Part shown: positions 15,431 to 58,169 of the stretch, in pieces
How the letters are laid out: each line of letters begins with the position of its first letter
How positions within the stretch are numbered: position 1 is the first letter of the stretch
Source: Candidatus Eisenbacteria bacterium
GTDB lineage: Bacteria > Eisenbacteria > RBG-16-71-46 > JAFGJU01
Reading direction: 5' to 3'
Length of the DNA: 64,000 bases
NCBI GenBank assembly: GCA_026388185.1
Contig: JAPLKG010000017.1
Coordinates: 62,001-126,000, forward strand
Position numbers and translations under genes: made by a program
The notes under the pieces: generated by a model
Database searches by the model: none
Told to the model about the DNA's origin: nothing
The model's input: the letters and a program-made list of their open reading frames with translations, nothing else

Positions 15431-15477
15431 CGTCACACTGTGAGAGAACAACTCTCAAAACGCACAGGGAGGTACAG

Positions 15478-19905: not shown

Positions 19906-19937
19906 CAACCATCACCTCCGTGTGAACGTTTGACCAA

Positions 19938-35272: not shown

Positions 35273-36139
35273 CTACTGCTTCACCCCGCCCAACGTCAGG
35301 CCGGAGACGAAGTATCGGTTGAGGAAGAGAAACAGTATAACCACCGGCAGGGACACGAGCACGCTTCCCGCGGCATAATTGGCCCACTCTGTCTGGAAGG
35401 TGCTGCTTAGGCTTTCGAGTCCAAGAGGAAGCGTATAGAGAGTTCTCGTGTTGATGATGACCCTGGCCACCATGAACTCCGACCAGGCCGCCATGAAGGA
35501 GAAGATTGCCGTTATCGCCAGGGCAGGCGCCGCGAGCGGAAGAACCACCGTTCGGAAGGCTCTCCAGTACGAGGCTCCGTCTATGAGAGCGGCTTCCTCG
35601 AGTTCCTTCGGAATTGTGTCATAGTAGCCTTTCATGGTCCACACGCAGAAAGGAAGTGCCGTGACCACGTAGGCGATCGCAAGGCCCCCCAGCGAGTCAA
35701 GAAGTTGAAGTCCCTTCATGAGGACGTAAAGGGGAAGAAGCAACATTGTTGCCGGAAACATCTGGGCAATGAGAAGCGAGTAAAGGCCGGACTTTCTCGC
35801 GACGAACTTGAAGCGAGAAAAGGCGTACCCCGCCGTAGCCGCGAGGAAAACACCGATCAGAGTCACAATGCCCGAGACGATGGCGCTGTTTCTGAGCCAC
35901 AGAGGAAATTCCTTCTCAAAGAGAATGGAATAGTAGGCATGGCCCGTGGCGTCCTCAGGGATCAACCGAAGCGACGTGGAGTAAAGTCTGTCAGCAGGCC
36001 GCAAGGAGATCCCGACTATCTGAAGTATCGGATAAAGCGTCGCAAGAGTAATGCAAACAAGCACGACGTGCGCGACGATCGTCTTTATCCTCGCTCCGCT
36101 TGATGCAGACCTTCTCCTGGTAATTCGCGTGGATTTCAT
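35273..36139 (-). CDS. malG: ABC sugar importer permease, MalG type
   Basis: 288 aa, six membrane helices. The EAA loop 'EEAALIDGASYWRAFRTVVLPLAAP' that contacts the ATPase is intact. MalG pairs with MalF to form the membrane channel for maltodextrin-type sugars. Its ATG overlaps the malF stop by four bases, showing tight coupling. Last gene of the ~23 kb glucan operon. No ATPase gene follows, so a shared MalK/MsmX-like ATPase must be encoded elsewhere. Confidence 0.92.
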   Translation of the reverse strand: MKSTRITRRRSASSGARIKTIVAHVVLVCITLATLYPILQIVGISLRPADRLYSTSLRLIPEDATGHAYYSILFEKEFPLWLRNSAIVSGIVTLIGVFLAATAGYAFSRFKFVARKSGLYSLLIAQMFPATMLLLPLYVLMKGLQLLDSLGGLAIAYVVTALPFCVWTMKGYYDTIPKELEEAALIDGASYWRAFRTVVLPLAAPALAITAIFSFMAAWSEFMVARVIINTRTLYTLPLGLESLSSTFQTEWANYAAGSVLVSLPVVILFLFLNRYFVSGLTLGGVKQ

Positions 36140-37035
36140 TCGAACGCCGACTCCGTTATCTTGAAATATCTCATGGAGGCAAACACAAACCCAAGAAGCA
36201 GGAAGAACACAATTACCGAGAAGGCCGCGGCGTAGCTGTACCGGTAATAGGTGAAAGCGGCCTTGTAGATGTACGTCACAAGTATGTGAGTCTTATCGGC
36301 CGGCAGGCCGCCGCCCGTCACCAACCAGATGACGTTCATGTTGTTGAACGTCCAGATGGTTCCAAGGACGACCGCGGGTGCGAGAATCGGTCTGAGCAGG
36401 GGAATCGTCACGTTCCTAAGTTTTCCCAGGGCCCCCGCTCCGTCAAGGTCCGCGGCTTCGTAGAGTTCGTGCGGAATGCTCTGCAGTCCACCCAGCGCCA
36501 CGATCATCATGAACGGAAAACCCAACCACACGTTTGTGATAATCGGCGCGACGAAGGCCCACGTGGCGTCGGAAAACCATGGAATCGGAGCGTGATGAAA
36601 CACCTTCATCAAGATAAGGTTGACCGACCCGTACTCGTGGTTGAACATCCCCTTCCACGTGAGTGCGCTTATGTACTGCGGGACCGCCCACGGAAGAATG
36701 AGAAGCGAACGGAAAATTCCACCACCGTAAATTCTCCCGTTGAGAATCAAAGCAATGGTGACTCCGATGGTCACGTGGAAGAACACGTTCACGACGGTCC
36801 ACACGACAGTTTTGCCGAATACCCAGTACAGTTCTCTCTGGCCGAAGACTTCGGCGAATTGTCGAAATCCTACAAACGTGGAATCCTGGAAGTGGTACAT
36901 GCTCATGTTCTTGAAAGCGAGGATGAAGTTGTAGATGAGCGGGTAAAGTACCACTATGAGCATCACAATAGCGGTGGGTAGAACGAGCGTGTAGGGAAAA
37001 AGCCTTCTGTCGCTGGTAAAGCGTGACAGGAACAC
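36136..37035 (-). CDS. malF: ABC sugar importer permease, MalF type
   Basis: 299 aa; GTG 37035 uses an AAGGAG lying inside the end of the malE-like gene. Six to seven helices, with the EAA motif 'YEAADLDGAGALGKLRNVTIPLLRP'. It lacks the long periplasmic loop of enteric MalF, like most Gram-positive-type and candidate-phylum homologs. Works with the MalG and MalE partners on either side. Confidence 0.92.
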   Translation of the reverse strand: MFLSRFTSDRRLFPYTLVLPTAIVMLIVVLYPLIYNFILAFKNMSMYHFQDSTFVGFRQFAEVFGQRELYWVFGKTVVWTVVNVFFHVTIGVTIALILNGRIYGGGIFRSLLILPWAVPQYISALTWKGMFNHEYGSVNLILMKVFHHAPIPWFSDATWAFVAPIITNVWLGFPFMMIVALGGLQSIPHELYEAADLDGAGALGKLRNVTIPLLRPILAPAVVLGTIWTFNNMNVIWLVTGGGLPADKTHILVTYIYKAAFTYYRYSYAAAFSVIVFFLLLGFVFASMRYFKITESAFE

Positions 37036-37039
37036 GCCC

Positions 37040-38302
37040 CTACTCCTTCATCTTGGTGATCGCCTCGACTGCGGCCTTCTGCATCTTGTTCGCGGCCTCT
37101 TGCGGCGTTATCTCGTTGTTCAGGACATTCTGATACGAGGGACGCATGCTGTCCCAGATCGCTCTCATCTCGGGCACCACGGGCATCCTGCGGCCCAGTT
37201 TGACCTGAGCCAGAGACGTTTCAAGAAACGGATCGCCCCTGGCGAGCAGGCTTTCAGCCGCCGCCTTCCTCGCGGGCAGCATCTTGATCTTCGTCGCGCT
37301 TTCGACCTGATTCTCGGTGGACGTAAGAAAATCGACGAGCTCTTTCACAATTGGAAGCTTCTTCTCGGGACAGTTCACATTCACGGAGTATCCTTTTGAC
37401 GAGACCATAGGCGTCGGCCAGAGTCCTGTCTCCGACATCCTGGGTATCGGCGTCAGCCCTACGTCAATACCTGCGGAGATGTACCCTCCCCAGGACCACG
37501 GGCCGTTTATTATCATTGCAGCTTTCCCCTCTTTGAAAAGCGTTTCGGCCTGCTGGTAGTCGCATTCTGTAGGCATGACGCGGTACTTTATCCGCAAGTC
37601 TCTCACGAACGCGAGCGCCTTTGTCATGGCAGGAGAATCAAGCGTCGGATTGTTGTTCTTGTCCATTACCCAACCGCCGAAGCCACCAAGGAAAGGCACC
37701 AGCCAGAAGGGTTCGACAGCGTTAAATACGAGGCCGTACCTATCAGTGACGCCGTCGTGATTCTCGTCAACAGTGTTCTGCTTGGCGAAGGCGATGAGCT
37801 CATCGCTGGTAGCAGGCGGTCTCTTCACAAATTTCTTGTTGTACGCGAGGGCAAGATGATTGCCAACCTGGTCTGGAACGGCGTAGATGTGCCCGTCCAG
37901 GGTGTCCAGGCTCCCCTCTATGAACTGGGCGAAAAAGGCGGCGCCGAAGAGTTCGTCCAGCGGGCGGACTAGTTTCATGACTGAGAACGGCCCGATCTGA
38001 TCCGACGGGCCAAAGACAAGGGCGGGGCCACCGCCGGCCAAGGCCGCCGTCTGATACTGCGTTCTGAGTAGCTCGGTCTCGAAATGGAGTCTTGTGATGG
38101 GCACATCGGGGTGAGTTTTCTGGAAAACCGCGATCCTGGCGTCTAGAAGCTTCTGCTCCTCGGGGTCCATCTGCTCCCAGACCGCTATTCCCTTTTCCTC
38201 TTTCTTGGCACAGCCGCCCGCGAGGTAAAGCACGGCCGGCACGGCAAGAACAGCCGCAAGAACGCACAAGAATACGCGGAGAAATCGCACGGACTTCATC
38301 AT
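37040..38302 (-). CDS. malE: Sugar-binding lipoprotein of ABC importer, MalE type
   Basis: 420 aa. Signal with lipobox 'LYLAGGC' near residue 31, so a membrane-anchored periplasmic binding protein. 'IAVWEQMDPEEQKLLDARIAVFQKTHPDVPIT' and 'AMIINGPWSWGGYISAGIDVGLTPIP' are typical of family-1 solute-binding proteins for maltose/maltodextrin. Gene context (amylases, CBM48 proteins, MalF, MalG) supports malto-oligosaccharide as ligand. AAGGAG precedes ATGATG; only 13 bp separate it from the amylase gene upstream. Confidence 0.92.
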   Translation of the reverse strand: MMKSVRFLRVFLCVLAAVLAVPAVLYLAGGCAKKEEKGIAVWEQMDPEEQKLLDARIAVFQKTHPDVPITRLHFETELLRTQYQTAALAGGGPALVFGPSDQIGPFSVMKLVRPLDELFGAAFFAQFIEGSLDTLDGHIYAVPDQVGNHLALAYNKKFVKRPPATSDELIAFAKQNTVDENHDGVTDRYGLVFNAVEPFWLVPFLGGFGGWVMDKNNNPTLDSPAMTKALAFVRDLRIKYRVMPTECDYQQAETLFKEGKAAMIINGPWSWGGYISAGIDVGLTPIPRMSETGLWPTPMVSSKGYSVNVNCPEKKLPIVKELVDFLTSTENQVESATKIKMLPARKAAAESLLARGDPFLETSLAQVKLGRRMPVVPEMRAIWDSMRPSYQNVLNNEITPQEAANKMQKAAVEAITKMKE

Positions 38303-38315
38303 CGACTCCTTACTC

Positions 38316-41255
38316 CTACTTCCCCATAATCTTAACGCCCGGTATCTCTACGAGTTTCCCCGTCGCCTTGAAGGCACCGAGAATGTCCTTCTGACTCTGA
38401 CCCGGCGGTACGATCAGGTCGATTATCCCTGGCTCGAGCGAGGAATTGACGCTCCCGCCGAAGCTCCATTCTTGTGACGTTGTCGTGATCGGCCTCACGC
38501 GTCCGGGGCTATAGCCGTCGTGCCCGACCACGAACGCAATTACCTTCCAATTCCGGTCGGGCTTGCCGACGAATTCCACGGGGACTTTCACGGTAATCGT
38601 GCGCGTAAGCGGGTCACCCCACGCCGCAACCCGTGCGCGGGGAATACGTTTCAAATCCACATCGTACAAGCCCACTTCGTCCATGTTCGCCATGACGTAG
38701 TATTCCCATTCCGACCCGGACCCCGCGTTGGCGTTTCTCGCAGTGTAGAGCTGTTTTGCGCCGCTGCCGGGTTTTCCGTCCGTGTCGATATAAAGATCAA
38801 TACCCTGGAGACAGAAGGCAACGTCGCCGCCCCAGGGGTCCGTCAGGTCGCCCGCGATCGACACTCTGAAGAATATGTCGGTGCTGTCCATAGAGACCTC
38901 GAAGTGCTTGGCGTCGTATGCCCCACCTACAAAGACAGCGTTCGTGGGGTACGTGTAGCTGCCTGGGCCGTTGTCGTCGCCGAGAGGGTCGTCCATGGAA
39001 AGGAGAGTCTTCTCTGTACCGCCCGGGAGAGGACCTTTCCCGGCGGCGGACACAGTCGCGGCCCTCGCACCGACTCCAATTATGGATTCCGACAGGTATT
39101 CCGGCGGCTCTTTTCCCATGAGAACGTATGCCTGCTTGAGAGTGTTCCTGAAGGCTTCGTCAAAGCGCTCGTCGTTACCTGAATCCTTGTCTTTTCCGTA
39201 CCACCAGAACCAGTCGCTTCCCTCCGCAGCAAGAAGGAGCTCGTAAACCTGTGCCACCAAGCGTGCGTCAGGCGCCTTCACGGCAGCACCGGCGGCCTTG
39301 CCCCGGTCACCGACCTCCTCCCCTTCGCCGGCGGCCGCGCCAGCCTTCCATTCCTCGAACGCGCGTCTCGCAAGAGTCAGGTCGTCCCAGGCCGCGTCTT
39401 CGTCCGGTTCACCAATCCACGTCGCGAAGGAATGTCCGTCCCACGAACCCGCCCAGAGCTTGTCTACCACCGGGAGGGTCTCGAGAGGGTGGGTTCTCAG
39501 AAACTCGCTGATGGTCGTCGTCTTAACCCAGGATGCCTTCGCAAGTTGAGAATAGAGTGCGCGCAGAAAATCTTTCCCGTCGTTCTCGTAGTTCTGCCAG
39601 GGGTTCTCCCCGTCGAGGATCACAACAACTATGTGATCTTTGTCGGAGTCTGCAAGGTCCCGCTGGATGTTGGAAAGGTTCTTGATAAAATCGTTGGCGG
39701 CCTCGACCGGGTCCACGCGGGCGAACTTGAAGCCTATGTCGTTGGAAAAGCCCGTGTCCCTGAAGACCAGACCAAGCGATGCTCCGTTCTGAGTGCCCCT
39801 GTAAATCGAGAATTTCTCTTCGTCCGTCAGGTTGGTCTTCCCGAGAGACTGGGCGAGATTCTCCATGTCGGTGGCGAACCACTTGAAACCTTGCGAGGCA
39901 ACGACGTCGATTATTTCCTGCGCAACCGCTCCTTCTCCCGGCCACATTCCTTCCGGTTTTCTGCCGAACCTCTGTTCGTAGAACGCAGAGGCCCTCCTCA
40001 CCTGCTCGGTGGCGTCTCCAGGAAAACTGAACCGCTCGGAGGGCAGCACCACGTTAGGCATCGCGACCTGCGCGAGGTCTGTGTCATAAATGAGAGGGAG
40101 AATGGGGTGATAGAAGGGCGTCGTCGTGACCTCGATCCGGCCCGCGTCTTGGAGTTTCTTGTGAATCGGAATCACGTTCCGCATGATTTCAATCTGCGCG
40201 TCAAGAAGTCTCTTCTTCTCGGCCTCGGTAAAACCCTGCCCCTTCTTGACCAAATCAGAGAGATCAATCTTCAAGCCCGAGGGAAGCTCGACCCCACCCT
40301 TGAGGAAATCGGGGTCCATCCAGGCCAGATTGAACCAGACCTGCAGGTCGAGAAAGTCTTGGGCCGAATATCGCGGCACGCTCTCGAGCAGCTTCTCGGG
40401 GCTAAAGCCGACCCGCCTGTCTCTGAGCTCCCGGTAGCGAGGAAAAGGGTCTATCTGGTTGGACCAGTTTGCGTCAAAGAATCTCGCGAGCAAGAACACC
40501 TTGTCGTCCTGCGTAAGCGCACTCGCCGGCCTGGCGCTCAGTCTGAGCATCTTGTCTGTGGGACCGTTTGTCTCGTAACCTCGGACTATTTCCTCCATTT
40601 GAGTGAGAAGAACCGGCGTGAGGTTGACAGAGTACTTGAGTCCTTCGAACTCCTGGACCATCGCCGCCATGTCGTAGTAGTCTTTCGCGCAGTGAAGCCT
40701 GACCCACGGGTCGAGGTATTCCCCGCTGACCGAATCTCGTTCGTAACGAGGCTGATGCTGATGCCACAAGATCGCGAAGTAGATGGGTCTGCCCGACGCA
40801 GTAATCTGTCCCACTATCGGAGCCGGAGATGGTTTCTTTGCAACTTCCATTGAGACCTCACCGTTCTCGAGGACCACGATCACCGAGTTGGATCCGCCGT
40901 AGGGATCCGGCGCCTTTGCCGGATTCGCAGGATCTTCCTTCCACGTTCCATCTATGACGAACTTATATTCGTAACGGCGAGGGCTTAGCCTCTTCGTGAG
41001 CCTGAAGATTCCGTCTTCGTCCTTCGTCATGAGGTCGGCCTCCGGAGCCCAGTCGTTGAACTCTCCTGACAGATAGACGGCCTTCGCGTCGGGAGCATAG
41101 AATTGGAATTCAATTCCCTCCCCCGTCTTCTGAGGTGGCCCCGCAAATGCAGGCGGCGCTTGGAACGGTGCCGTGGCGGCAAACGCGGCGAGAAATACCA
41201 CGAGAAATGCAGTCCCCAGCAAGACCAGGTTTGGCCGTGACTGTGTCTCTTTCAT
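38316..41255 (-). CDS. Secreted GH57 alpha-amylase/pullulanase-like enzyme with CBM48 and glucodextranase-C-like modules
   Basis: 979 aa from ATG 41255 with AAGGAGGG four bases upstream; the 13-codon extension is dropped. Signal peptide (to ~38); CBM48-like module (~38-135; 'AVYLSGEFNDWAPEADLM', 'YEYKFVIDGTWKEDP'); GH57 domain (~155-590) starting 'FAILWHQHQPRYERD' with nucleophile motif 'EGMWPGEGAVAQEI' and 'VILDGENPWQNY'; helical region; glucodextranase-C/DOMON-like module (~765-965; 'DDPLGDDNGPGSYTYPTN'). The 'HQHQP' plus 'MWPGEG' pattern fits the larger amylopullulanase-type GH57 group acting on starch or glycogen. No sorting domain, so probably periplasmic, just upstream of the importer genes it would feed. 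Confidence 0.92.
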   Translation of the reverse strand: MKETQSRPNLVLLGTAFLVVFLAAFAATAPFQAPPAFAGPPQKTGEGIEFQFYAPDAKAVYLSGEFNDWAPEADLMTKDEDGIFRLTKRLSPRRYEYKFVIDGTWKEDPANPAKAPDPYGGSNSVIVVLENGEVSMEVAKKPSPAPIVGQITASGRPIYFAILWHQHQPRYERDSVSGEYLDPWVRLHCAKDYYDMAAMVQEFEGLKYSVNLTPVLLTQMEEIVRGYETNGPTDKMLRLSARPASALTQDDKVFLLARFFDANWSNQIDPFPRYRELRDRRVGFSPEKLLESVPRYSAQDFLDLQVWFNLAWMDPDFLKGGVELPSGLKIDLSDLVKKGQGFTEAEKKRLLDAQIEIMRNVIPIHKKLQDAGRIEVTTTPFYHPILPLIYDTDLAQVAMPNVVLPSERFSFPGDATEQVRRASAFYEQRFGRKPEGMWPGEGAVAQEIIDVVASQGFKWFATDMENLAQSLGKTNLTDEEKFSIYRGTQNGASLGLVFRDTGFSNDIGFKFARVDPVEAANDFIKNLSNIQRDLADSDKDHIVVVILDGENPWQNYENDGKDFLRALYSQLAKASWVKTTTISEFLRTHPLETLPVVDKLWAGSWDGHSFATWIGEPDEDAAWDDLTLARRAFEEWKAGAAAGEGEEVGDRGKAAGAAVKAPDARLVAQVYELLLAAEGSDWFWWYGKDKDSGNDERFDEAFRNTLKQAYVLMGKEPPEYLSESIIGVGARAATVSAAGKGPLPGGTEKTLLSMDDPLGDDNGPGSYTYPTNAVFVGGAYDAKHFEVSMDSTDIFFRVSIAGDLTDPWGGDVAFCLQGIDLYIDTDGKPGSGAKQLYTARNANAGSGSEWEYYVMANMDEVGLYDVDLKRIPRARVAAWGDPLTRTITVKVPVEFVGKPDRNWKVIAFVVGHDGYSPGRVRPITTTSQEWSFGGSVNSSLEPGIIDLIVPPGQSQKDILGAFKATGKLVEIPGVKIMGK

Positions 41256-41330
41256 CAGGCCCTCCTTCGGCGCACAAGGTGAGTCCTCATCCATGCCGAC
41301 TTCTAAGACACTATTTCCGAGAGAAAACGG

Positions 41331-42098
41331 TTACTCGCTGACATCTATGACGGAGTTGAAGCCGCCGTACGGGTCGGCAACCTTGTTGGGGTTATCGGGA
41401 TCCACGTTCCACTGCCCGTCCACAACAAACTTGTACTCATGCTTTCCCGCAGGGATGGCGATCTTGATTCTCCAGATTCCGTCTTGGCCCTTCTTCATCC
41501 CGTCCTTGTCACCAGCCCAATTATTGAAATCACCGGCCAAATACACGGATTTGGCGTCCGGCGCGCTCAAGGTGAATTCAACTTCACTTCCCTTAGGCGC
41601 GGCTCTCGTCCCAGCGTTCTCGAGAGAGGCAGCGAGAGAAAGGTAGGGCACGTCGTACTTGATGCCTTCGGGCACCACAAGGAACGTGTTCTGATAACCA
41701 GTTTCATTCTCTATGTCTGGATTGTTTGGATCCTTCTCCCATCTCACCTGATCTACTACAAACTTGTACTGATACCTTCCCGGTGGAAGAGGAACGTAGA
41801 TGCTCCAGATTCCCTTTTCGTCCGACGACATCGGGTCAATGTTGGGATCAAACCTGCCGCCACCCTGCGTCCCTCCCCAGTTGTTGAAGCTTCCGGCAAG
41901 ATTGACCTGGCGCGCGGCGGGCGCCTCGTACTGAAAGATGACTCCCGTGGGAGTGGGGTGCGGCTTGGGTATCCTGGTTCTTATTGCTCTCATCACGGCG
42001 CAGCCGGAGACAAGAAGAACCAGGCAGAAGACGAACAGAACGACGGGGCGATAAGAACCGAGAGCAGGCGCGTGGATTCCAAAGCTACTTCTCTTCAC
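41331..42098 (-). CDS. Lipoprotein with two tandem CBM48-like glucan-binding domains
   Basis: 255 aa taking GTG 42098 as start (AGAGG ten bases upstream); the frame is open to 42140. After the lipobox 'LVLLVSGC' come two domains of about 95 residues with little else: domain 1 has 'VNLAGSFNNWGG' and 'YQYKFVVDQVRWEKDPNNPD'; domain 2 has 'VYLAGDFNNWAGDKDGM' and 'HEYKFVVDGQWNVDPDNPN'. The fold is that of CBM48/AMPK-beta glycogen-binding domains. With no catalytic domain, it is best read as a glucan-binding surface or periplasmic lipoprotein, a functional analogue of SusE/SusF. Binding is inferred; domains and lipobox are seen. Confidence 0.85.
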   Translation of the reverse strand: MKRSSFGIHAPALGSYRPVVLFVFCLVLLVSGCAVMRAIRTRIPKPHPTPTGVIFQYEAPAARQVNLAGSFNNWGGTQGGGRFDPNIDPMSSDEKGIWSIYVPLPPGRYQYKFVVDQVRWEKDPNNPDIENETGYQNTFLVVPEGIKYDVPYLSLAASLENAGTRAAPKGSEVEFTLSAPDAKSVYLAGDFNNWAGDKDGMKKGQDGIWRIKIAIPAGKHEYKFVVDGQWNVDPDNPNKVADPYGGFNSVIDVSE

Positions 42099-42188
42099 GA
42101 AATTCACACCTCTCTTGATGACCGGAGAGCCCTCGCTCACTCGGCGACAGAGAGCTCTCGCCGACGAGATCGCCGCGGAGCCGGGTTG

Positions 42189-44408: not shown

Positions 44409-44476
44409 TGCGCTTCCCCTCTCACGTCTCCGTAATATGTCTTCATCTTGCTGGCGTGCTTCTCCCTGGTGGCACG

Positions 44477-45988
44477 TCAGTAGTACATCTTGAGGAAGAG
44501 TTTGACGTATCTCTGCGTGCTGGCGTTACTATCCCATTGCACGAAATCATCGTCGTTGACGAGGTCGTTACTCTGGTCCGGATTTCCGAATTCGACGAAG
44601 CCTTCTCCGCTCGTCCAGCCGGTGTACCTCAGTTGCAGGAACACCGTCTGGCGGGACTGCGTCGGCACATTGACGTTCATCACCCTCGAGTAGAACTTCC
44701 ACTTGTCGGAAAGGTTAACGCTCATCTCGAAGCCGTAGGCTTCAAGTTGGTATATTGTGTTGATGTCCTTCACTCTGAGCTGCGTGCGAATCCTGGCGAG
44801 TCTGTTCTCTCCCGCCACTTCGAAGAGGAAATTCGGGTAGATTCCATTGTTGTCCCTGTAATATCTGTACTCGGCCCTGGACGTGAAGCCTCTCACAAAC
44901 TCGACGTAGACTTCACCGACGCTCTGACTCTTACCCCACAATTGCCCCTTCGAATCCCTGAGCCGGAAGGCTCTGTAGTCATATCTGGACGCCTTGAGAT
45001 TGACCGCCTTGGTCGGAATACGATAATTCGTCTCTACGTAGTATCCCTTGTAATCGTCGTCCGACTCGCGATTTGACATGCCGGTGTAGAAGTTGGTCTC
45101 GTAGTATTGATAGGAAGCCACGTTGTAGAAGTCGCCCACACTGAAATCTCTTATTTCAGTCTTGAACCCGTTCGTGAGAGGGTTCTCAATCGCGTCGAGC
45201 CACCTGCCCGAGATGTTCCTCCCGACCTCGGTCGCCAACGTGACTCGTCCGAAACGCGACAAAGTTGGAACAAGGTGTCCCAGCGCCAGCTCTATGTCCG
45301 CGGCGACGACCCTGTCGTAGTCGTGTACGTCGGAGCCGAAGTTGTGATTTGCCAGGGTGGCGCCGATCACAAGTTTGTCGTGGAGAAAAGGTCTCTTGCC
45401 CCTGAACGCGACGTTGTCCTCGCCGCTCCTCTTCTGACTGTAGTAGCTCACTCCGTTGAAGTTCTTGAGTCCCCAGAAGTCAAGCCGAATCCCCTGGGCG
45501 CGCGGGCCGTAGTCGTCGTCCTTCACCCTGTCGGGATTCACGATTTCAAGAAGTGGCTCGGAGAACCAGAATCTGTTTTCCTGAGAGAAAAGAACGGCCT
45601 CGGCGTTTTTCCATTTCGTCCTGATGTGCCCCTCTTTGGCGAAGATAAGATTGTATCGTTTGTAGTCCTTCCACCTGTTGGACTCGGCGCTGAATCTTAA
45701 GAATCCTTCTACGTCTGGCATCGGGGTCGTCCTGAGGGCGAGCTCCAGATAGTGCCGCGGCTCATTGATGCCCCAGGAGCGATCCTCGCCGTTCAGCTCT
45801 GTCTGAGCCTCGTAATACCATTCCAAGGTGGAGACGGCGAACAGAGGGACCACCGCCGACAGGAGGAACGCCGTCGTCAGCAACGTGACCAGCGTGACTG
45901 TGTGACCAAGCTTCATGATCCTTAAAGTGACTCCATCGGAGCGCTTGTTCATGCTCTCGTTCTCTCGCTCTCGCGCCGGCGCACTCAT
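44477..45988 (-). CDS. Outer-membrane beta-barrel protein (unnamed family)
   Basis: 503 aa from ATG 45988, with AGGAGT five bases upstream and seven bases after the PorV-like stop; the longer frame overlaps that gene and is rejected. Signal peptide at ~26-50 ('LGHTVTLVTLLTTAFLLSAVVPLFA'). The rest is amphipathic beta-strand, rich in Tyr/Arg/Asp, with 'LRYTGWTSGEGFVEFGN' and a terminal aromatic ('LFLKMYY'). Probably a barrel pore or scaffold working with the CBM48-barrel protein encoded next. No family name can be given. Confidence 0.72.
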   Translation of the reverse strand: MSAPARERENESMNKRSDGVTLRIMKLGHTVTLVTLLTTAFLLSAVVPLFAVSTLEWYYEAQTELNGEDRSWGINEPRHYLELALRTTPMPDVEGFLRFSAESNRWKDYKRYNLIFAKEGHIRTKWKNAEAVLFSQENRFWFSEPLLEIVNPDRVKDDDYGPRAQGIRLDFWGLKNFNGVSYYSQKRSGEDNVAFRGKRPFLHDKLVIGATLANHNFGSDVHDYDRVVAADIELALGHLVPTLSRFGRVTLATEVGRNISGRWLDAIENPLTNGFKTEIRDFSVGDFYNVASYQYYETNFYTGMSNRESDDDYKGYYVETNYRIPTKAVNLKASRYDYRAFRLRDSKGQLWGKSQSVGEVYVEFVRGFTSRAEYRYYRDNNGIYPNFLFEVAGENRLARIRTQLRVKDINTIYQLEAYGFEMSVNLSDKWKFYSRVMNVNVPTQSRQTVFLQLRYTGWTSGEGFVEFGNPDQSNDLVNDDDFVQWDSNASTQRYVKLFLKMYY

Positions 45989-45995
45989 GTTACTC

Positions 45996-49900: not shown

Positions 49901-52381
49901 CATTCCCACGATGCTGTGGTGCAACGGGTCACTTTCGGGAGCCGACTCGTCCACGGCAACGAGATCCGCCTCAATTGATAGAGTCACTGGTTGGACCGCA
50001 TACGGGGAGTTACCGGAGATTTCGACCGCACCGTACGATTGAGCGGCCGTGGCGAAACCCGAAGCGTGGCCGTTGCCGTCGGTCACGAGAGGACTAGAGA
50101 GCTCCGAGAGCCTTCCGGAGGGTGAAGAGAAAAGTGATATGGAAACTCCGGGTTCTGCAACCTCGTTTCCGAAAGCGTCGGTAATCTGGGCGCCGATCGT
50201 GAAACGCAGTTCCGCGTACACAACCTCGTACTGCGGTTTGAGCTCTACGTAGGTCCCCGGCCCCGGAATTACGGTCACGGACACAGAATTCGTACTGAGC
50301 TTCTGCCCGTTGTAAAGGACGGAATCCGAGACGACGACAAGGCCGGCCTTGCTGGAATAAAACTCAACCTCAAACTGGCCGTTCGTGTCGGTGGTCGTGG
50401 ACGCCGGCGCGAGGGTACCCTCGCCGGAAAGCAGCTTCAGGTCGACCGAAACGCCGCTTTCCGTCGAATTGCTGCCGACCGCGTCCTTGAGCTGCCCCCT
50501 CACTGTCGCCTTTTCCACTCCGCCGGCCTCGATCGCGTCCGGCTCAATCGTGAGTTCGACGCTCACGGGATTTCGCGGGAGAAAACCGACCCTCACGGTT
50601 CCGGGGCTTCCGTATCCGAGGCTCACGGCTGGTGACGCCTTGATGAGGAGGACCTCCACAACGTCGTCGGCCGCGAGCAGCGTGGCCCTCCCACTTTGGA
50701 ACGAGGCCGCAGTGAGAAGCCCCCCGGGAAGTTCCAGGGTGTCTCCGTCGGCCACAATCACGTGACCCAGCGGAGCGAGCGAAGGATCGAGCAGGCTGCA
50801 AGATATGTAGACACTGTCGCTGAAGTGGCTCAGATTGAAGATGTCGAGCTGCCCAAGCGAATCCCTGGCCTCAACGTAGACCGAGACGTAAAGATAGATT
50901 CCGGCGGCCGGCAGGCTTACCGTGCCCAGAACATCGCACGAATCCGGCACCGACTTCGCAAAAACGAATTTCGTCCCTCGGACGGCGTGGAGCGCGATGG
51001 CGCCAGCGTCCGTCGTTCCTCCTCCCGACACGGTGACGGGCAGGGTGACCCTCTGGTATCCCGGTGCAGTAACAACGAGGTCGTACCCGGCGTCAGGCAA
51101 TAGCGAGATCGTAAAGCTTGCGCCTGGAGGCCCCACGCTCACGGGACTCGTCCCGGCCGCGGTCGTAGTGCCGCTCACGTAGGCCGTGATGACGGCCAGC
51201 GCGCCCGGACCATCGGCGAAGCTCAGAGTTCCCGTGATCTTTCCACTCACGTATTGAAGTGTGACATCGTTGCCGACGGATTCGCCTCCTCCCGAGACCG
51301 CGATGTTCTGGAGCGTGCGGCTCACGTAGGAAGAAGCCTCAAATGTGAGGTCATAGTTGCCGTCAGGCAGGTTGCCGATCCGGTAGGCTCCGCCTCCTGC
51401 GGGCGCAGTCGCCTTGCCGGCGACATCGGTCGTGCCCGCACGGAAGGCCGTCACGATCACGACGGTGGTGAGGTCGTCGGCGTTGCTCAAAGTGACGGTT
51501 CCGCCGATTGCGCCCGAGGGCGGAAAACCTTCGTCGGGAATTCCGTCGCCGTTTCTGTCACAGAAGGCGAGGAAAAGGTTGCTGAGAATAACCGGCCCCG
51601 CCCCACCGTCCACACCGGGGTTGTCGGGCGCCGAGTCGCATCCTCCGTAGTTGTCGCCGCCGGCCACGAACCCGACAATCCTCAGAATGGCGCCCGGCTT
51701 GATTCTACCCGCTCCCAGTTCGTAGATGGCACGCCACGGAATGGCAATCTCGACCGCACCCTTCACACCGCTTTGCGCGCTGTTCGTGATGCGGCACGAG
51801 GCGCTCATGTCTTGCGTCTGACCGTCTCCGGTTATCCGCCTCACACCCGGCATTCCCGCGTTCCAGCCGGCAATAATGACCTCGGCCTTCCCTTCGCTGA
51901 GCCTGAAATTGCGAGGATACCAGTTGAGATTATTGATGTCGGAATCACCGACGCCGGTGCCGGCGTCTATCAAGACGACCATCGCGTTGTTGTTGACGAC
52001 GTAGATGTAACCGACGTAGAGACTGTCCGCGTCCCACGTGACAAGGATGCTGTCGATTTCGTTCCCCGGCCACTTGGAATCGCTTGGCGAATCCGGGATG
52101 GCCACTTCGTTGCTGTCCCAATCCGCAGAGGTGAAATTGATGTAACCATCGATTTGCGGTGAGTTGTAGCTGGTGGCGTAGGAAACTCGAGGAAGCGAAA
52201 GAGTAAACAGAAGAGCCAACAGAGAAGCGAGCAGAACCGCCGGCAGGGCGGACTGCGCCCGGGAAAGGACTCGATCACGTGTCCCGTCCCGGAGAGTCTT
52301 CCATAGGGACCCCACATCCACGAAGTCGTTCACGAACTCGCGTTCATTCTGCGGAAGAGACGTTCCGATAGAACCCATCAT
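46949..52381 (-). CDS. 1810-aa modular surface protein with sugar-binding-like and Ig-like domains and sorting domain
   Basis: Start at ATG 52381 (the frame opens one codon earlier at TTG); ribosome site weak. Order: signal (~40-70); CBM9/DOMON-like 'IDGYINFTSADWDSNEV' (~72-275); two carboxypeptidase-regulatory-like repeats (~290-465; 'LPDGNYDLTFEASSYVS', 'LLPDAGYDLVVTAPGYQ'); invasin-type Ig domains (~615-830; 'TDTNGQFEVEFYSSKAG'); choice-of-anchor-like Ig (~1030-1130); glucodextranase-C/DOMON-like module (~1135-1420; 'DHGPNQYGKAGLYYLYPTN'); beta domains; FlgD-like C-terminus ('ISPNPFSPNGDGLYEETQIS', 'VPYGIYIVRF'). No catalytic domain seen. Likely a surface scaffold or glucan-capture protein. 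Its stop overlaps the PorV-like start. Confidence 0.8.
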   Translation of the reverse strand: MMGSIGTSLPQNEREFVNDFVDVGSLWKTLRDGTRDRVLSRAQSALPAVLLASLLALLFTLSLPRVSYATSYNSPQIDGYINFTSADWDSNEVAIPDSPSDSKWPGNEIDSILVTWDADSLYVGYIYVVNNNAMVVLIDAGTGVGDSDINNLNWYPRNFRLSEGKAEVIIAGWNAGMPGVRRITGDGQTQDMSASCRITNSAQSGVKGAVEIAIPWRAIYELGAGRIKPGAILRIVGFVAGGDNYGGCDSAPDNPGVDGGAGPVILSNLFLAFCDRNGDGIPDEGFPPSGAIGGTVTLSNADDLTTVVIVTAFRAGTTDVAGKATAPAGGGAYRIGNLPDGNYDLTFEASSYVSRTLQNIAVSGGGESVGNDVTLQYVSGKITGTLSFADGPGALAVITAYVSGTTTAAGTSPVSVGPPGASFTISLLPDAGYDLVVTAPGYQRVTLPVTVSGGGTTDAGAIALHAVRGTKFVFAKSVPDSCDVLGTVSLPAAGIYLYVSVYVEARDSLGQLDIFNLSHFSDSVYISCSLLDPSLAPLGHVIVADGDTLELPGGLLTAASFQSGRATLLAADDVVEVLLIKASPAVSLGYGSPGTVRVGFLPRNPVSVELTIEPDAIEAGGVEKATVRGQLKDAVGSNSTESGVSVDLKLLSGEGTLAPASTTTDTNGQFEVEFYSSKAGLVVVSDSVLYNGQKLSTNSVSVTVIPGPGTYVELKPQYEVVYAELRFTIGAQITDAFGNEVAEPGVSISLFSSPSGRLSELSSPLVTDGNGHASGFATAAQSYGAVEISGNSPYAVQPVTLSIEADLVAVDESAPESDPLHHSIVGMDLTGVYVRLEDDTLKVYVPFESDWTGAHVAVIFETEGDEQGLLNDTFKFPIAFYHTLKPDFIFTDKFQANSDGDPGNDYADFRRWAGPGIDSFWDLAAQTWTTDASNSNKNAASWTRHDGTGVHISVPRQVMGLAVGDSLRVEAYCMDEPSAKRTALDSCPQDSTHDMTGNWWETAIDTVRLHNYGSLKLAALPQAPVISGAAVAPSPASTGEVVRVLASITPRDDGVGDVTVDLSAIGGSSVQRLYDDGTNGDATTGDAVYSYAFTVSDSVPGGVHTLTITARDDSNRSKSTASILLEIAVERVLIRSFEDPSDDDHGPNQYGKAGLYYLYPTNPVFYAGSFDLRNVEIIDEGDWLDFRVTIGDLTSPSEPNAANWNAIYPSATTCTNPGWVPLNLQNAVIFIDSEKGGATTALPNRWADVAAWDAWEFAIVADGWWKGALASNGSNDSYSWTKYKSDADYWFCTNYADNTMDMHVNKEILGNPSVEDVSKWDIIAVMSSHDGASTDENFGMVRWINEGSATEWNFGGGLSGESSRERDANIIDVATSSGEGKLAGKTQGEMLDYTTDAAKARFNAGQVAVVLEATRFEDYAPPAISAFPTNGTAVTRWFAMENAPLVIGTVVTDDDEVAEAFLKWRPLRGSFSSPIRMSHLLEDLWVADIDFSDVTSVVNSVEGKLYFELQVSATDRSGNTAESRLFTAEVSTERPEQYLLTDIEQYADPLTGEIILQGVPFVVPDGSALVIPAGLLPDTSKVYDLVFTSLSGVDLSHKPQGMGSFTGVARSFEIVGREADSTAGSGTSLTDFVEPFTVLLHYPAYAVGAGDARGLAIYGWQEETSRWVLFGGNATSRPGLVSVATRTPGTYGIFADRFSIDLDKTLSSVAISPNPFSPNGDGLYEETQISFYLSKAASVLIEIYDMRGQLVRRYDRKSYSEPGRIEGESWDGKDGEGTTVPYGIYIVRFEAIDQEYNRAERLNKAVVVIK

Positions 52382-52752
52382 CAAACCGAAGTGACCCCTT
52401 ACCCCTCTTTACGAAGTCCCGACCTTCCTTCACACCCCTCGGATGTTCGTGTCCAAATGCTGCTGATTCCCTGGAGGCATTCCAAATGTTGGATACGGCA
52501 CAAGTCGCCCGATTCTCGCGCCCTCATCACTTACCGAAGAACCACAGGCGCCGGATGCCGAAGAGTCATTCTACATCCAGAGCGATCGTCTTGAAACCTC
52601 TTTCTTACCCGAATTCAAGCACCTCGAGAACCGTCCCGGCGAGACTCCACTTTCTGCCGGTCTGCCGTCGAAACCGGCGCAGCGGTTACTTGACGCTGCC
52701 CGCACCGCGAGACGACACTCAGAAACGATCCTCACCGCAGAGTCAGTTCGTA
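52382..52752. other. Gene-free stretch inside the glucan operon
   Basis: About 370 bp between the giant GH57-like gene and the 1810-aa protein gene. No open frame of note, no convincing promoter, and no terminator with a U-tract. A weak GCCGGT/ACCGGC stem lies near 52656-52680. Transcripts may pass through, or a promoter not of sigma70 type may be present. Confidence 0.4.
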
Positions 52753-55700
52753 CTACTTCAGAAGTATCATTTTCCTGGTCTCTCTGATTCTATCAGACTC
52801 GACGCTATAGAAATAGACGCCGGAGCCGCAGACTCTACCGTCCTCCGAGACGCCGTTCCACACAAATCTCCACACGCCGGGGCCGAGATTGGCGTCGGCA
52901 AGGGTCCGCACGACCCGACCCTGCGAGTCGAATATCCTGAGCCGAACATGCGCGCTGCCTGCCAGACTCAGCTCCACGGTCGTTGCGGGATTGAACGGAT
53001 TGGGGAAGTTCTGGTGGAGAATGTCAACGGTGGGTCTGGGCTCACCGGGCACAGACGTAGTCTCTCCGTCAAACTCGACGCTGCTGTTGGCCTCGATTTC
53101 ATTCTTGTAGCACGATGTATCCTGAACGCCGCTCACCTGAACCGTGTAAGAAAGGGGAAGTTGCTGGCCGGTCTTGAGCACCACCGTCTTACCGTCTCCC
53201 TGAAGGGTTGCATCAAGAATGGGAAGCTGATTACCGGGCACAAGAGTTTCGTAAGCACTGTAGTTGCCGATTTCCTCGGCCGTGGCCGCGGTCACACACT
53301 CGCTAAAGACCACGGAGACGAGCGTGTCTCCCAGCGATTGAGCCGAGGCCAGTGTAGGCGGCGTTCCGTCAGGCAAATCAGGGCGGCCGTCGCCGTCGGC
53401 GTCCACGACAAACGTGAACACCCTGTCAATGGTAGGCAGGACGGCGCTGACATTGCTGGGCGCGCTGTCTCCGCCCAGGACTCCGCTTGGCTCCGGATCC
53501 CAGCAAAGCGACGCCACCATTGATATGCTGCAGTGCTCGGGGACTCTCCCCTCTCCCAACCCGAACAATACGCTCCACGGAATCGCAAGCTCACTGCCCC
53601 CTACATCTCCGTAATAGTGCATCGAGTCGAAGGCGCTGAGGATCGAGTCGGAATATGCGACGCTCGTCGTGGGCGATGTTATTTTCCAGAAACTGTCACC
53701 GTCGGATTGTCCCTGATGCTGATAGCAACCGTACTCCCAATCGGCCTTGAAACCGGAGGCGGTGAACAAAGCGCCCCTCTCCCAGTGGTCGATGCCCGTG
53801 AGGTCGGTCTGACCGTTCGAGCCGCCCGGATCGGTGTCAAGATATACGATCCAGCTATTGGCGGTGACCTTCCCGTCAAGCGCCAGATACAGATATGTGC
53901 TGTCCATCGCCACGTAAAGCGCGTCTATCTCGTTGGATGAGCTCCACTGGGAATCGTTGGAATCTCTGACCGCCATGGCGCAGGCAGGCCACTCGTCCGA
54001 AGAGAGATGTCCATCGATCGCGATCATGGTAGGCAGTCCGTATGAAATCATCTTGTTGTCGGTGTTTCTCACGGCGAGGTTTCCGTTGCCGTGAACGTCG
54101 CAAACAGTGTTGACGGCGAGGAGCAGCCTGAGATTGGAAGTGTTGAGCGCCTCTATCTGGGCGGCCGTGGCTGCCGCTACCGAGATCACGATGGCGGGAC
54201 CGTTTGCAGTATTCGTCACGTGAGAACTGCTGTCGAGTGTGACCTCGGCCGCACCGTCGTTGTCATCGTCTATTGAGATCCCGGTGAGCGTGACCTGCTG
54301 ATAATTGATGTCCTCGGTGAACTCAATGGAAAGCTCGTCACGCCCGGGGAAATAAGTCGAAGTGACCACCTCGGGTTTCACCTTGTCGTAGAGTGAATCG
54401 GCAAGAACTTCGAGCTCCGCTACCCTCCCCTGTCCGTCCGGTGTAGATGTCTTTCCGGCGTAAAGGTACAGCTCGAACGCCTGTCTCCCTGTGATCTCGT
54501 CTCCCTTCATTATGGTGCCCGTGAAATCCCTGACGTGAGACGTCCCACCGGTTCCGACGACGTACGCGCCCGTAGCACCCGTATTGGGGTTCCTCTGCCC
54601 CACGTAGGCGATGTCGGAGACCCAGATGCGGTCCATGCTTGCGTTCCAGACAAGGTCAACCAAGTCCGGGGAAAAGCCGGTCTGAACGTAGGCCTGCGTC
54701 CCGCCCGTGTAGTAGATAACGTCCAGGTACGGTTGTCCGGCAATAAGCTTCACGATCTTCTTTACACCTTCGTGCTGGAACGTGGCCTGGACGGTGTCAC
54801 CGCTTGCTTGGTTGACTTCCATCGAGTAGAGGGAATGCTGATAGTTGGGGCCGACGTCGCTCAGCGCCCCGACGTGGTTGCCGTCGTTGTAGTCTGCGTC
54901 CGTGCCATACCAATAGGCGTTGTCAACGCCGACGACCGAAAAACTGTAGTCGGAGCCCTTTGCAAAAATGTTGACGGCCCGCCCGCCGATGGACTCAAAC
55001 ACGGCTAACACCCTGTCGTTGTACATCACAAGTTCCGAATAGCCGTCGTTGTCGATGTCGCTGAGATATGCGCCCGTGGAATTTGCGTAGAGGCCGGCCG
55101 CCCATCTGGAAGCCTCCGCGTACGTGTTAGCGTTCTTCATGTGGGAGGAGTATTTCTTCTCCCAATCGCTGATCGGTCCTCCCACGTAATCGTGCCAACC
55201 GGTCTCGTGGAGGTTGGTCATGAGAACGTACCATCCGGCCTGCGAGATGTTGTTGTTCGGCGCTGCCATGAGAGCATCGTAGGCGTCGTCCCAGAGCGTG
55301 CCGTAGTTCTTGCAGTTGCCGCCGGTGCCGGCACAGTTTCCGTAACCATCGCCTCCGTTGGCGTACGGAATGTAGCCGGCCCAGTGCGTGTACCACGCAT
55401 TGTTGCTGCCGCCATATCCGTCCGTCCCGCCTATGCCCCAGTAAGTACCATTCGTGACGCTCATCGCCGAAGAACCGTTGAAACTAGGATTGCTGAGTGC
55501 GTCCGCCAGCTTCCACGTGTGGAGCCACGAGCTCTCGGACACGCACTTGTCCATCATCCAGTCATACGTGCCCTTCGCGTACGGCATGGTCTGCGCCCAC
55601 TCACCCATCGCGGCGACCATCTCCCAGTCGTCTGCATATGTTACGATCCTGTAAGTGCCGTTGCCCGACGAAGCGAGATTCTGCAAGACGGCCAATGCGC

Positions 55701-57093
55701 CGGCGCCATCCCCGGAGTGCATCTTGCCGGTGAAATCGTGGTCTCTGAGAATCACCTTGAGCGAGCTCCCGCTCATCGTGTGAATCTGGTGATTGTCGTA
55801 GCCTATTCCGTGAACGTCGTCGTCGAGAATGACCGAATAGACCCCGTTGTTGGTCCAGTTGTCACCTATCCAATCTGAAACGCCGGCCGACGGATAGGAA
55901 GAGGAGCTGAGCCAGACCCGCTCGGGAACCCACGCCACGCGCGGGTAATAACCGTATCTTGTGTTGCCCATCTGGGTCTCGATGTTGACCGCCCAGTCGT
56001 TCATGCTGTTCTGCACAAACGGCATCATGTGCTGTCCGTAGGCCGACGAGACTATTCCGGCCCATCCCTCTGTCACGCCCGTCGCAAGCCACGTGTTGAA
56101 GTCCATTACGTCTCCGCAATTGTGATCCCAGAGTTGCGAGGTCTGAAGAAGAGGACAAAGCTGGAAGTTGCCGGGGATCCCCGTGGCCTCGTGCTTTTCG
56201 AGGGTTTCGTCGAAGCCGCTCTCCGCCTCGGCGCCGTAGCGACCGTGGAAGACGTCGGAGTGACCGAGACCCTGGTTACCGTGGTGAACGAAGGCGACGT
56301 TCGCCTCGTACGTGACGGGAGCCGGGTCAAAAGCCGTGAGCGTGTCCAAAACTGTGTTCCCTGATGCGGTAATGACAAAATACCCCGTGACGTTCTGCGC
56401 GACGGGGGCGGCCGAAACCCTTGCGCGGGGAATCGCCGCAAGGACGGCGTCGGAGGAACTGACCACGTTCATGAAGCGTTCGTCAAAGAGAGTCTCTCCG
56501 GCGGCCGAGTTGGTGCGGACGCGAAGACTACCGGGGACGTGAGCCGCTTGCGCGCCCGCGGGAGACTCACCTGCTCCTGTGCCTGCCGCACCGGGTCTGA
56601 TCTCGACGAGCTCGTCCCAGGCAAACGGCGCTCTGCCTGCCAGACCGTTCGGCAGAGCGGTCTCACCTCCGGGGGCATTGTCAATCAGGACATAGACGCG
56701 GATGCCTTTGCTGAAAAATATCTCTTTCCCGGTTCTCAGGTCCTTCATGCTTACGAGGCTCACTCGAAAGCTCTCGTATCCGTCCTGCTCGTGAACGTAG
56801 AGTGAGAGAATGTCTCCCGGCGAAACTGAACCGTCTTCACGCCGGATGACCTTGCCCACTCCCTTGAGCGAACCTGAAGGCCATGCGACGGGAGCCGCTA
56901 GAAGCCTGGCCGAGAATGTTCCAGGCGCGGGAGAAGCAGTGACGCCGGCGGGTAGACTCTGAGCGCCGATTCCCTGGCGACCATCGGCATCACCGCCCGG
57001 AACGGGCGCCGCCAGCGCGTACGCAAGAGACACCAACGTAAGCCCAAGGACGATTAGCGACGTGACAATAGTCGATTGCAGTGTGCGCTCCAT
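52753..57093 (-). CDS. Giant secreted GH57-like protein with DOMON-like and sorting domains
   Basis: 1446 aa from ATG 57093, six bases after the LacI-type gene. Signal peptide (~1-30); beta-rich N-region (~60-250); GH57-like barrel (~265-670) with 'ANVAFVHHGNQGLG', 'AYGQHMMPF', the nucleophile motif 'VAWVPERVW' (E391) and candidate acid in 'YADDWEM' (D488/D489); a Gly/Tyr/Asn-rich insertion ('GGDGYGNCAGTGGNCKNYG'); GH57-type C-terminal beta-sandwich ('SDIDNDGYSELVMYN', ~680-930); SbsA-like domain; CBM9/DOMON-like module (~1050-1260; 'IDGHLSSDEWPACAMA'); T9SS/FlgD-like domain ('NFPNPFNPATTVELSL'). Probably a surface-exposed alpha-glucan hydrolase or transferase. The barrel is divergent, so activity is less sure than for the other two GH57 proteins. 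Confidence 0.82.
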   Translation of the reverse strand: MERTLQSTIVTSLIVLGLTLVSLAYALAAPVPGGDADGRQGIGAQSLPAGVTASPAPGTFSARLLAAPVAWPSGSLKGVGKVIRREDGSVSPGDILSLYVHEQDGYESFRVSLVSMKDLRTGKEIFFSKGIRVYVLIDNAPGGETALPNGLAGRAPFAWDELVEIRPGAAGTGAGESPAGAQAAHVPGSLRVRTNSAAGETLFDERFMNVVSSSDAVLAAIPRARVSAAPVAQNVTGYFVITASGNTVLDTLTAFDPAPVTYEANVAFVHHGNQGLGHSDVFHGRYGAEAESGFDETLEKHEATGIPGNFQLCPLLQTSQLWDHNCGDVMDFNTWLATGVTEGWAGIVSSAYGQHMMPFVQNSMNDWAVNIETQMGNTRYGYYPRVAWVPERVWLSSSSYPSAGVSDWIGDNWTNNGVYSVILDDDVHGIGYDNHQIHTMSGSSLKVILRDHDFTGKMHSGDGAGALAVLQNLASSGNGTYRIVTYADDWEMVAAMGEWAQTMPYAKGTYDWMMDKCVSESSWLHTWKLADALSNPSFNGSSAMSVTNGTYWGIGGTDGYGGSNNAWYTHWAGYIPYANGGDGYGNCAGTGGNCKNYGTLWDDAYDALMAAPNNNISQAGWYVLMTNLHETGWHDYVGGPISDWEKKYSSHMKNANTYAEASRWAAGLYANSTGAYLSDIDNDGYSELVMYNDRVLAVFESIGGRAVNIFAKGSDYSFSVVGVDNAYWYGTDADYNDGNHVGALSDVGPNYQHSLYSMEVNQASGDTVQATFQHEGVKKIVKLIAGQPYLDVIYYTGGTQAYVQTGFSPDLVDLVWNASMDRIWVSDIAYVGQRNPNTGATGAYVVGTGGTSHVRDFTGTIMKGDEITGRQAFELYLYAGKTSTPDGQGRVAELEVLADSLYDKVKPEVVTSTYFPGRDELSIEFTEDINYQQVTLTGISIDDDNDGAAEVTLDSSSHVTNTANGPAIVISVAAATAAQIEALNTSNLRLLLAVNTVCDVHGNGNLAVRNTDNKMISYGLPTMIAIDGHLSSDEWPACAMAVRDSNDSQWSSSNEIDALYVAMDSTYLYLALDGKVTANSWIVYLDTDPGGSNGQTDLTGIDHWERGALFTASGFKADWEYGCYQHQGQSDGDSFWKITSPTTSVAYSDSILSAFDSMHYYGDVGGSELAIPWSVLFGLGEGRVPEHCSISMVASLCWDPEPSGVLGGDSAPSNVSAVLPTIDRVFTFVVDADGDGRPDLPDGTPPTLASAQSLGDTLVSVVFSECVTAATAEEIGNYSAYETLVPGNQLPILDATLQGDGKTVVLKTGQQLPLSYTVQVSGVQDTSCYKNEIEANSSVEFDGETTSVPGEPRPTVDILHQNFPNPFNPATTVELSLAGSAHVRLRIFDSQGRVVRTLADANLGPGVWRFVWNGVSEDGRVCGSGVYFYSVESDRIRETRKMILLK

Positions 57094-57098
57094 GTTCC

Positions 57099-58169
57099 TT
57101 AACCCTCTTTCCTGAGACTTGAGATCGCTCCTCTTGGTGTCTCCAAATGTGTCGTGACGTTGCAGCCGCAAGATTCGCGGACTATGAGCTCAGTAGCAAC
57201 CGTCTCCTCCACCGGCCATTCCCCGGAACCGGAGAGTTTCTTGAGCAAGAGACTGGTAGCGAGACAGCCTATTTCGAACATGGGTTGCCTGAGCGTGGTG
57301 AGTCGTGGTTCGACGTACGAACCCAGCGCTATGTCATCAGCTCCTACCACGGCCAGGTCACCCGGGACGGCCATCCCTGCCTGCCTCGCGTATTCGATGC
57401 ATCCGATCGCCATCATGTCGTTGCACGCAAAGACGGCACTCGGTCTATTCCTTCTGGAGAGAATTCTCCGGGCGGCCTCATACCCGCTCTGCTGCGAGAA
57501 GTCTCCGTACTCGACGTGGTTCCTTACGAACTGTAGACCGCAATCCGAGACGCCTCGTTTGTAACCTTGGTTTCTCCTGAGGCCCACGGTCGTGCTGTCC
57601 AGGCCACCGATGAACCCTATGCTTTTGTGACCCAGCGAGGCCAGATGAGACACGACGAGACGCGCACCGCCGAAGTTGTCCGCCACTACGCACGAGACCC
57701 CCGGGCGCCAACTATTGACGAGAACGGCGGTGCAGCCCCCTGCGAAAACCTCTCCGACGTAGGTGTCGGTGTCGAGCGTCCCAACCAGCAGCATCCCGTC
57801 AATCTGGCGCTCGCGAAAGAGTCTCACGTGCATCGAATCCTTGAGGAAGTTCTCGGTGACCATCTCTATGATCATGCGGTAGCCATTTGAACTGAGAACG
57901 TCGCTTATGCCGCTGATGGATTCGGAAAAGTAATAGTCGCTGAAAACGTGCGCGGATATCTTGGGGACCACGACCGCCACGATCATTGAACGCTTCCTCG
58001 CGAGACCCCTGGCCATGCAGTTGGGCTCGTAGCCCACCCTTTCAATAACCTCCCAGACCTTGGCCCGCGTAGAATGAGCTATGCGAGGGTCGCCGTTCAG
58101 CACCAGAGAAACCGTGGAGCGCGAGAATCCCGAGAGCCGTGCGATGTCCCTTATGGTGTGATGCGCCAT
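57099..58169 (-). CDS. LacI-family transcriptional regulator of the glucan operon
   Basis: 356 aa from ATG 58169, where the text becomes 'HHTIRDIARLSGFSRSTVSLVLNGDPRIAHSTRAKV', the normal LacI helix-turn-helix start. An ATG at 58259 would add 30 residues; neither has a strong ribosome site. The ligand domain is periplasmic-binding-like ('DGMLLVGTLDTDTYVGE', 'RRNRPSAVFACNDMMAIGCIEYARQAG', 'VVGADDIALGSYVEPRLTTLRQP'). It is the first gene of the operon, so autoregulation is likely; maltose or a malto-oligosaccharide is the expected inducer by context only. Confidence 0.9.
   Translation of the reverse strand: MAHHTIRDIARLSGFSRSTVSLVLNGDPRIAHSTRAKVWEVIERVGYEPNCMARGLARKRSMIVAVVVPKISAHVFSDYYFSESISGISDVLSSNGYRMIIEMVTENFLKDSMHVRLFRERQIDGMLLVGTLDTDTYVGEVFAGGCTAVLVNSWRPGVSCVVADNFGGARLVVSHLASLGHKSIGFIGGLDSTTVGLRRNQGYKRGVSDCGLQFVRNHVEYGDFSQQSGYEAARRILSRRNRPSAVFACNDMMAIGCIEYARQAGMAVPGDLAVVGADDIALGSYVEPRLTTLRQPMFEIGCLATSLLLKKLSGSGEWPVEETVATELIVRESCGCNVTTHLETPRGAISSLRKEG

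Follow-up and report, generated by a model that had tools for sequence, protein, structure and literature searches.

Locus Organization

The window analyzed here is a stretch of 64,000 nucleotides (contig 17, positions 62001-126000) from a Candidatus Eisenbacteria-type MAG of 2.6 Mb that is 98% complete. It carries eleven open reading frames on the minus strand, running from a LacI-family regulator, whose start at 58169 reads MAHHTIRD, to a MalG-like permease gene that ends at 35273 (Table 1). A first-pass annotation of the same DNA had described eleven same-strand genes with mostly tiny gaps, and all of them were found where it had placed them. Counted from LacI, the gaps are approximately 5, 368, -4, 7, 68, 48-90, 36-75, 13, 4, and -4 bp, lengths that depend on the starts picked by ribosome-binding site; nine of the ten are about 90 bp or shorter, at two junctions the genes share 4 bp, and the sole long gap, of 368 bp, separates GH57A from the gene for the 1811-aa surface protein. 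A second promoter could lie inside this gap; promoter and terminator scans stayed near shuffled expectation, and a search for LacI-type palindromic operators, both in this gap and around the start of the operon, was negative. The gene content given by the annotation matched at the level of Pfam and NCBIfam families, and alpha-glucan genes also occur in the window beyond the coordinates of its operon, namely a third GH57 and a CBM48-GH13.

Table 1. Genes of the operon, in order from the regulator, followed by accessory glucan genes in the window.
Feature	Coordinates	Strand	Evidence
LacI-family regulator	57099..58169	-	Pfam LacI 2e-14, Peripla_BP_3 2.8e-34
GH57A, secreted divergent GH57-superfamily enzyme, T9SS-type C-terminal tail	52753..57093	-	Family invariants; PF03065 in homologs; 1K1W; Por_Secre_tail
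1811-aa surface protein (Glucodextran_C, Big_1, CarboxypepD_reg, CHU_C/FlgD tail), start uncertain	46949..52384	-	Pfam
PorV/PorQ-like outer-membrane protein	45996..46952	-	NCBIfam PorV_fam 1.1e-21; Pfam PorP_SprF
Barrel2, large outer-membrane barrel, no known family	44477..45988 (ORF to 46207)	-	AF2 model
CBM48-barrel, N-terminal CBM48 fused to large outer-membrane barrel	42189..44408	-	Pfam AMPK1_CBM 1.8e-11
Tandem CBM48 lipoprotein, likely start 42098	41331..42140	-	Pfam AMPK1_CBM 1.7e-29, two stretches
GH57B, secreted CBM48-GH57-Glucodextran_C enzyme	38316..41294	-	Pfam GH57 3.6e-59; PDB 9JLQ
MalE-like substrate-binding lipoprotein	37040..38302	-	Pfam SBP_bac_8 4.5e-35; NCBIfam MalE 137 bits (cut-off 291)
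MalF-like permease	36136..37035	-	NCBIfam MalF best match, 179 bits; Pfam BPD_transp_1
MalG-like permease	35273..36139	-	NCBIfam MalG best match, 189 bits; Pfam BPD_transp_1
Third GH57, N-terminal Glucodextran_C, C-terminal FlgD-type tail, outside operon	8891..12331	-	Pfam GH57 2.7e-25
CBM48-GH13 neopullulanase-like enzyme, accessory	15322..17628	+	Pfam Alpha-amylase 3.3e-77
Big_5/FlgD-tail surface protein, accessory	17869..19908	-	70% identity to L037, 47% to L056

Secreted Enzymes and Accessory Genes

GH57 enzymes have a catalytic layout of a Glu nucleophile and an Asp donor (PMC6037648). GH57B matches recently solved GH57 structures (PDB 9JLQ at 3.2e-73) and its signature is whole, with WHQHQP, the N..T motif, WPxE (E454), and LDGEN (D561) kept in homologs; E454 and D561, the predicted nucleophile and acid, are invariant. 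GH57A, at 1446 or 1472 aa, is more divergent. The window copy alone is too divergent to match GH57 in Pfam, a profile of three sequences showed no GH57 link, and hhalign of GH57A against GH57B was weak (17% probability). Among 20 homologs drawn from 385 genomes, 16 matched PF03065 (best 4.1e-11) and the GNQ, WxPER, and DWE motifs are invariant in all. The family profile matches the Thermococcus litoralis 4-alpha-glucanotransferase 1K1W at 3e-7, and the third GH57 of the window, a clear member approximately 23 kb away from the operon, aligns to GH57A at 5e-10 and so serves as a bridge. Because of the PF03065 matches in the family, the 1K1W match, and the alignment to the third GH57, GH57A is regarded as GH57-like, and the earlier description of two GH57-like secreted proteins stands, for GH57B by Pfam and for GH57A by family-level matches and motifs. 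Both are predicted to be enzymes acting on alpha-glucan. The tail of GH57A scores 27.8 bits against NCBIfam Por_Secre_tail, above the cut-off of 23.

GH57 also includes 4-alpha-glucanotransferases (PMC6037648), one of which is the closest match of the GH57A profile, and the GH57 of a Pontibacter PUL worked as a 4-alpha-glucanotransferase (PMC11206854). These observations would fit a locus by which the cell turns over alpha-glucan of its own, surface-bound or secreted, or remodels glucan by GH57 transferases, rather than using external starch. Such a role appears improbable, as the MalEFG-type ABC importer and the amylase-type GH13 partners found in the cassette point to uptake, and the locus is without a gene for glucan synthesis or export.

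The 1811-aa protein was ruled out as an enzyme, having no catalytic domain by Pfam; its N-terminal domain (BIGN) corresponds in most relatives to the conserved gene upstream of PorV. The accessory CBM48-GH13 is 66% identical to the L037 copy, and relatives of the Big_5/FlgD-tail surface protein flank the cassette in other genomes. Orthologs of both lie a few kb past MalG in one genome (G002), from which the glucan island looks to have been split in the genome of the window. The window also encodes a UPF0182 membrane protein (12440-15349, minus strand; full-length match). At another locus (L145:149-1747 and 7948-10641), a protein with an HAHLP motif, of the GH57 branching-enzyme type as judged by eye, is encoded in the vicinity of an OAR-type TonB receptor and of a PorV-like protein.

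Outer-Membrane Components

Barrel2 has no match in Pfam, NCBIfam, or PDB sequences. Its AlphaFold (AF2) model (pLDDT 81.6) has approximately 24 strands, and Foldseek searches of PDB and BFVD returned generic large outer-membrane barrels at low TM-score and no known channel family; no copy was found in viral contigs. The presumed lumen face is the more conserved (0.59 versus 0.47), 40% charged, and partly aromatic, the charge contrast being partly built in by the assignment of faces from hydrophobicity. The second barrel starts with a CBM48 of its own, which adds to its earlier description. Its model, like that of barrel2 of moderate confidence (pLDDT 75.9), has approximately 23 barrel strands, and conservation on its presumed lumen side does not exceed that on the lipid side. 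No Pfam plug-domain match was found in the CBM48-barrel, no TonB plug was found in either barrel, and no solved relatives of either were found. As candidates for known channels, a LamB-type porin was rejected since barrel2 had no Pfam, NCBIfam, or PDB sequence match and the folds matched were generic barrels, and a SusC-type receptor since no locus protein has a plug or TonB barrel match in Pfam.

Across 26 homologs, the CBM48 of the barrel always has W52, K81, and N104, and W89 occurs in at least 90% of them. W52, K81, and W89 align directly to glucan-contact positions of AMPK-beta; N104 is taken to be another such position by comparison with the AMPK motif. The domain has the CBM48/AMPK1 fold with its predicted glucan-contact residues. 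The tandem CBM48 protein carries the lipobox LLVSGC.

The small barrel beside these genes has PorV_fam as its best NCBIfam match, at 77.8 bits against a cut-off of 90, and matches Pfam PorP_SprF above cut-off (32 bits). PorV-family proteins serve the T9SS in Bacteroidota, SprA is encoded in the source genome, and the cassette gene beside PorV has CHU_C/FlgD tails; SprA and the tails suggest that the exported enzymes may take a T9SS route. The strongest rival to an uptake function extends this view to the barrels, which together with the PorV-like protein would form a platform for secretion or anchoring of the T9SS-tailed enzymes and CBM48 proteins, with short sugars entering through general porins. 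That pilus ushers are among the best Foldseek matches of barrel2 would agree with it, but these matches are weak (TM approximately 0.55, rmsd >10 A), and the charged and partly aromatic conserved face of barrel2 resembles that of sugar channels. Moreover, the T9SS requires shared machinery only, so that two extra barrels per locus would be left unexplained. We regard this explanation as unlikely, if a serious one.

SusC/SusD and TonB-Dependent Receptors

The first-pass annotation had called the operon Sus-independent, with no SusC/SusD pair and no TonB receptor in view. Domain searches of the locus confirmed this, and for SusD the same holds on a larger scale: neither the source genome nor any of the 47 genomes of the phylum sample has SusD (PF14322), while a Bacteroides control was positive. 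The genome encodes four TonB receptors, all outside the locus, and one of these might carry the glucan while the cassette just binds and cuts it. This is very improbable, since the four look like receptors of the B12/heme/siderophore or OAR types and all fail the SusC/RagA model, quite apart from the lack of a receptor in the locus and of SusD in the phylum.

Importer, ATPase, and Regulator

Maltose models are the best NCBIfam matches of MalE, MalF, and MalG, though below their equivalog cut-offs, and judged by sequence the binding protein and two permeases are of maltose type. The operon has no ATPase gene. An MsmX/UgpC-type multi-sugar ATPase gene lies at approximately 147 kb on the same contig (G000:C17; L083, L147), approximately 21 kb past the end of the window and adjoining a ROK glucokinase gene, and its product is likely the shared ATPase for MalFG. 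Orthologs of the LacI protein are encoded upstream of the cassette at L047 (57% identity) and at L053 and L054 (49%), and the protein probably regulates the locus.

Conservation and Modular Inheritance

Conservation in related genomes, the lack of which the first-pass annotation had said would count against its reading, is strong. Barrel2 and the CBM48-barrel are neighbors in 17 of 47 genomes of the phylum, namely those with the fusion. A profile search found barrel2 in 36 of 385 genomes, 19 of them outside the phylum, and in approximately 17 of these 19 the CBM48-barrel adjoins it. A pattern scan across genomes returned 29 loci, the named ones in Eisenbacteria, Effluviviaceae, or Gemmatimonadota-labelled MAGs; related named loci are from Candidatus Eisenbacteria MAGs, some labelled Effluviviaceae or Gemmatimonadota. 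The cassette BIGN-PorV-barrel2-CBM48-barrel-CBM48 lipoprotein occurs in Eisenbacteria, Effluviviacota-type, and other lineages, and in relatives GH57B or CBM48-GH13, plus MalEFG, lies near it, the enzyme partner varying by genome. At one locus from another phylum (L103), GH57A, BIGN, PorV, barrel2, CBM48-barrel, CBM48, GH57B, MalE, MalF, and MalG follow in the order of the window, with one extra FlgD-tail gene as the difference. GH57A was found in 31 of the 385 genomes and together with barrel2 in 22; outside the phylum the counts are 19 for barrel2, 18 for GH57A, and 10 for both. This co-occurrence is above expectation (Fisher 1.5e-19 overall and 7e-10 outside the phylum, values that serve as guides since genomes are not independent). 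The recurrence of order and partners in dozens of genomes is far beyond chance. Several cold-seep MAGs labelled Eisenbacteria (L072-L082) have cassettes that group with Effluviviaceae, and from this grouping their labels may be outdated.

Pairwise distances are correlated among barrel2, CBM48-barrel, and PorV (r 0.84-0.91) and among MalE, MalF, and MalG (r 0.98-0.99), and less so between the outer-membrane genes and MalEFG (r 0.64-0.72). Trees agree with these correlations. The window copy of barrel2 groups with Effluviviacota-type and cold-seep loci (17-row clade, 100/100), and that of MalF with Eisenbacteria (12-row clade, 100/100); the cold-seep loci carry a different MalFGE, approximately 25-30% identical. 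With the barrels of the window placed among the Effluviviacota type and its importer among Eisenbacteria, one outer-membrane module has been joined to two importers. The outer-membrane genes form one evolutionary unit and MalEFG a second, and the two have been re-paired between lineages; this re-pairing with two ABC importers shows that the outer-membrane module is a unit.

Proposed Function

The locus is probably a modular, SusCD-free system for alpha-glucan utilization in which an outer-membrane module of its own replaces SusCD, a proposal that builds on the gene families, the predicted catalytic and CBM48 glucan-contact residues, the conserved order, and the modular inheritance. In the best reading, the CBM48 surface proteins and the two barrels take the place of SusC-SusF. 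Jointly, the gene products would bind and cut glucan, carry malto-oligosaccharides across the outer membrane, and import them, with starch, glycogen, or maltodextrin as the presumed substrate. A LacI-type protein would control the locus. GH57A, GH57B, and the 1811-aa protein would be exported, two of these with T9SS-type tails, and would act on glucan at the outer membrane or outside it, by binding and by cutting or rearranging. Glucan would be retained on the cell surface by the CBM48 lipoproteins and by the barrel's own CBM48, which would stand in for SusE/SusF. Products would then pass the outer membrane through barrel2, the CBM48-barrel, or both, without TonB or SusD. MalE would bind malto-oligosaccharides and MalFG would import them, powered by the MsmX/UgpC-type multi-sugar ATPase encoded beyond the window.

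A bolder form of this proposal, for which we see about an even chance, is that barrel2 and the CBM48-barrel constitute an outer-membrane uptake complex specific for alpha-glucan and independent of TonB and SusD. It would add a third solution to SusCD and LamB, with a distribution that takes in Eisenbacteria, Effluviviacota, and further candidate lineages, and would have been exchanged as a module between different ABC importers.

Comparison With Known Systems

A glycan-utilization locus is of a known kind; its outer-membrane parts match no described family of the libraries searched, and no publication on them was found. Literature searches returned nothing on GH57 with Eisenbacteria or on AMPK1_CBM with the outer membrane, and a term search of the Effluviviacota paper, in which GH13 and GH57 are listed, revealed no locus of this kind. 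SusCD-free polysaccharide entry in candidate phyla has usually been passed over, and a Latescibacteria genome paper put it down to "non-specific porins" (PMC4454575). The locus provides concrete, expressible candidates for this step in the form of two barrel families, both conserved and one bearing a starch-binding domain; their genes are almost always linked to those of CBM48 proteins and mostly lie near amylolytic enzyme genes and MalEFG.

Like the SusCD PULs of Bacteroidota, including Sus itself, the locus groups a regulator and outer-membrane barrels with amylolytic enzymes that are secreted and lipoproteins that bind glucan at the surface, and the CBM protein of one relative weakly matches SusF_SusE, below cut-off. 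It differs in having no SusD, no TonB plug found in its barrels, and a CBM48 fused to a barrel; its enzymes are of the GH57 type, and the operon also encodes an ABC importer. Its enzymes resemble GH57 4-alpha-glucanotransferases and amylopullulanases, GH57A in its WxPE and DxE-type motifs and 1K1W match and GH57B in WPxE, LDGEN, and its match to 9JLQ-type structures; they differ in being secreted and built of several domains, among them CBM48, Glucodextran_C, Big, and T9SS-type tails. Among T9SS components, the small barrel of the cassette is nearest to PorV_fam but under cut-off, and differs from PorV/PorQ in being dedicated to an alpha-glucan cassette. With the LamB-MalEFGK system of Escherichia coli, the locus shares MalE, MalF, and MalG and the expectation of an outer-membrane channel, and LacI-like regulation also occurs in the E. 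coli maltose regulon (MalI). In contrast to that system, there is no LamB homolog, two unrelated larger barrels are present, the ATPase is encoded elsewhere, and the importer comes with CBM48 proteins at the surface and GH57 enzymes outside the cell.
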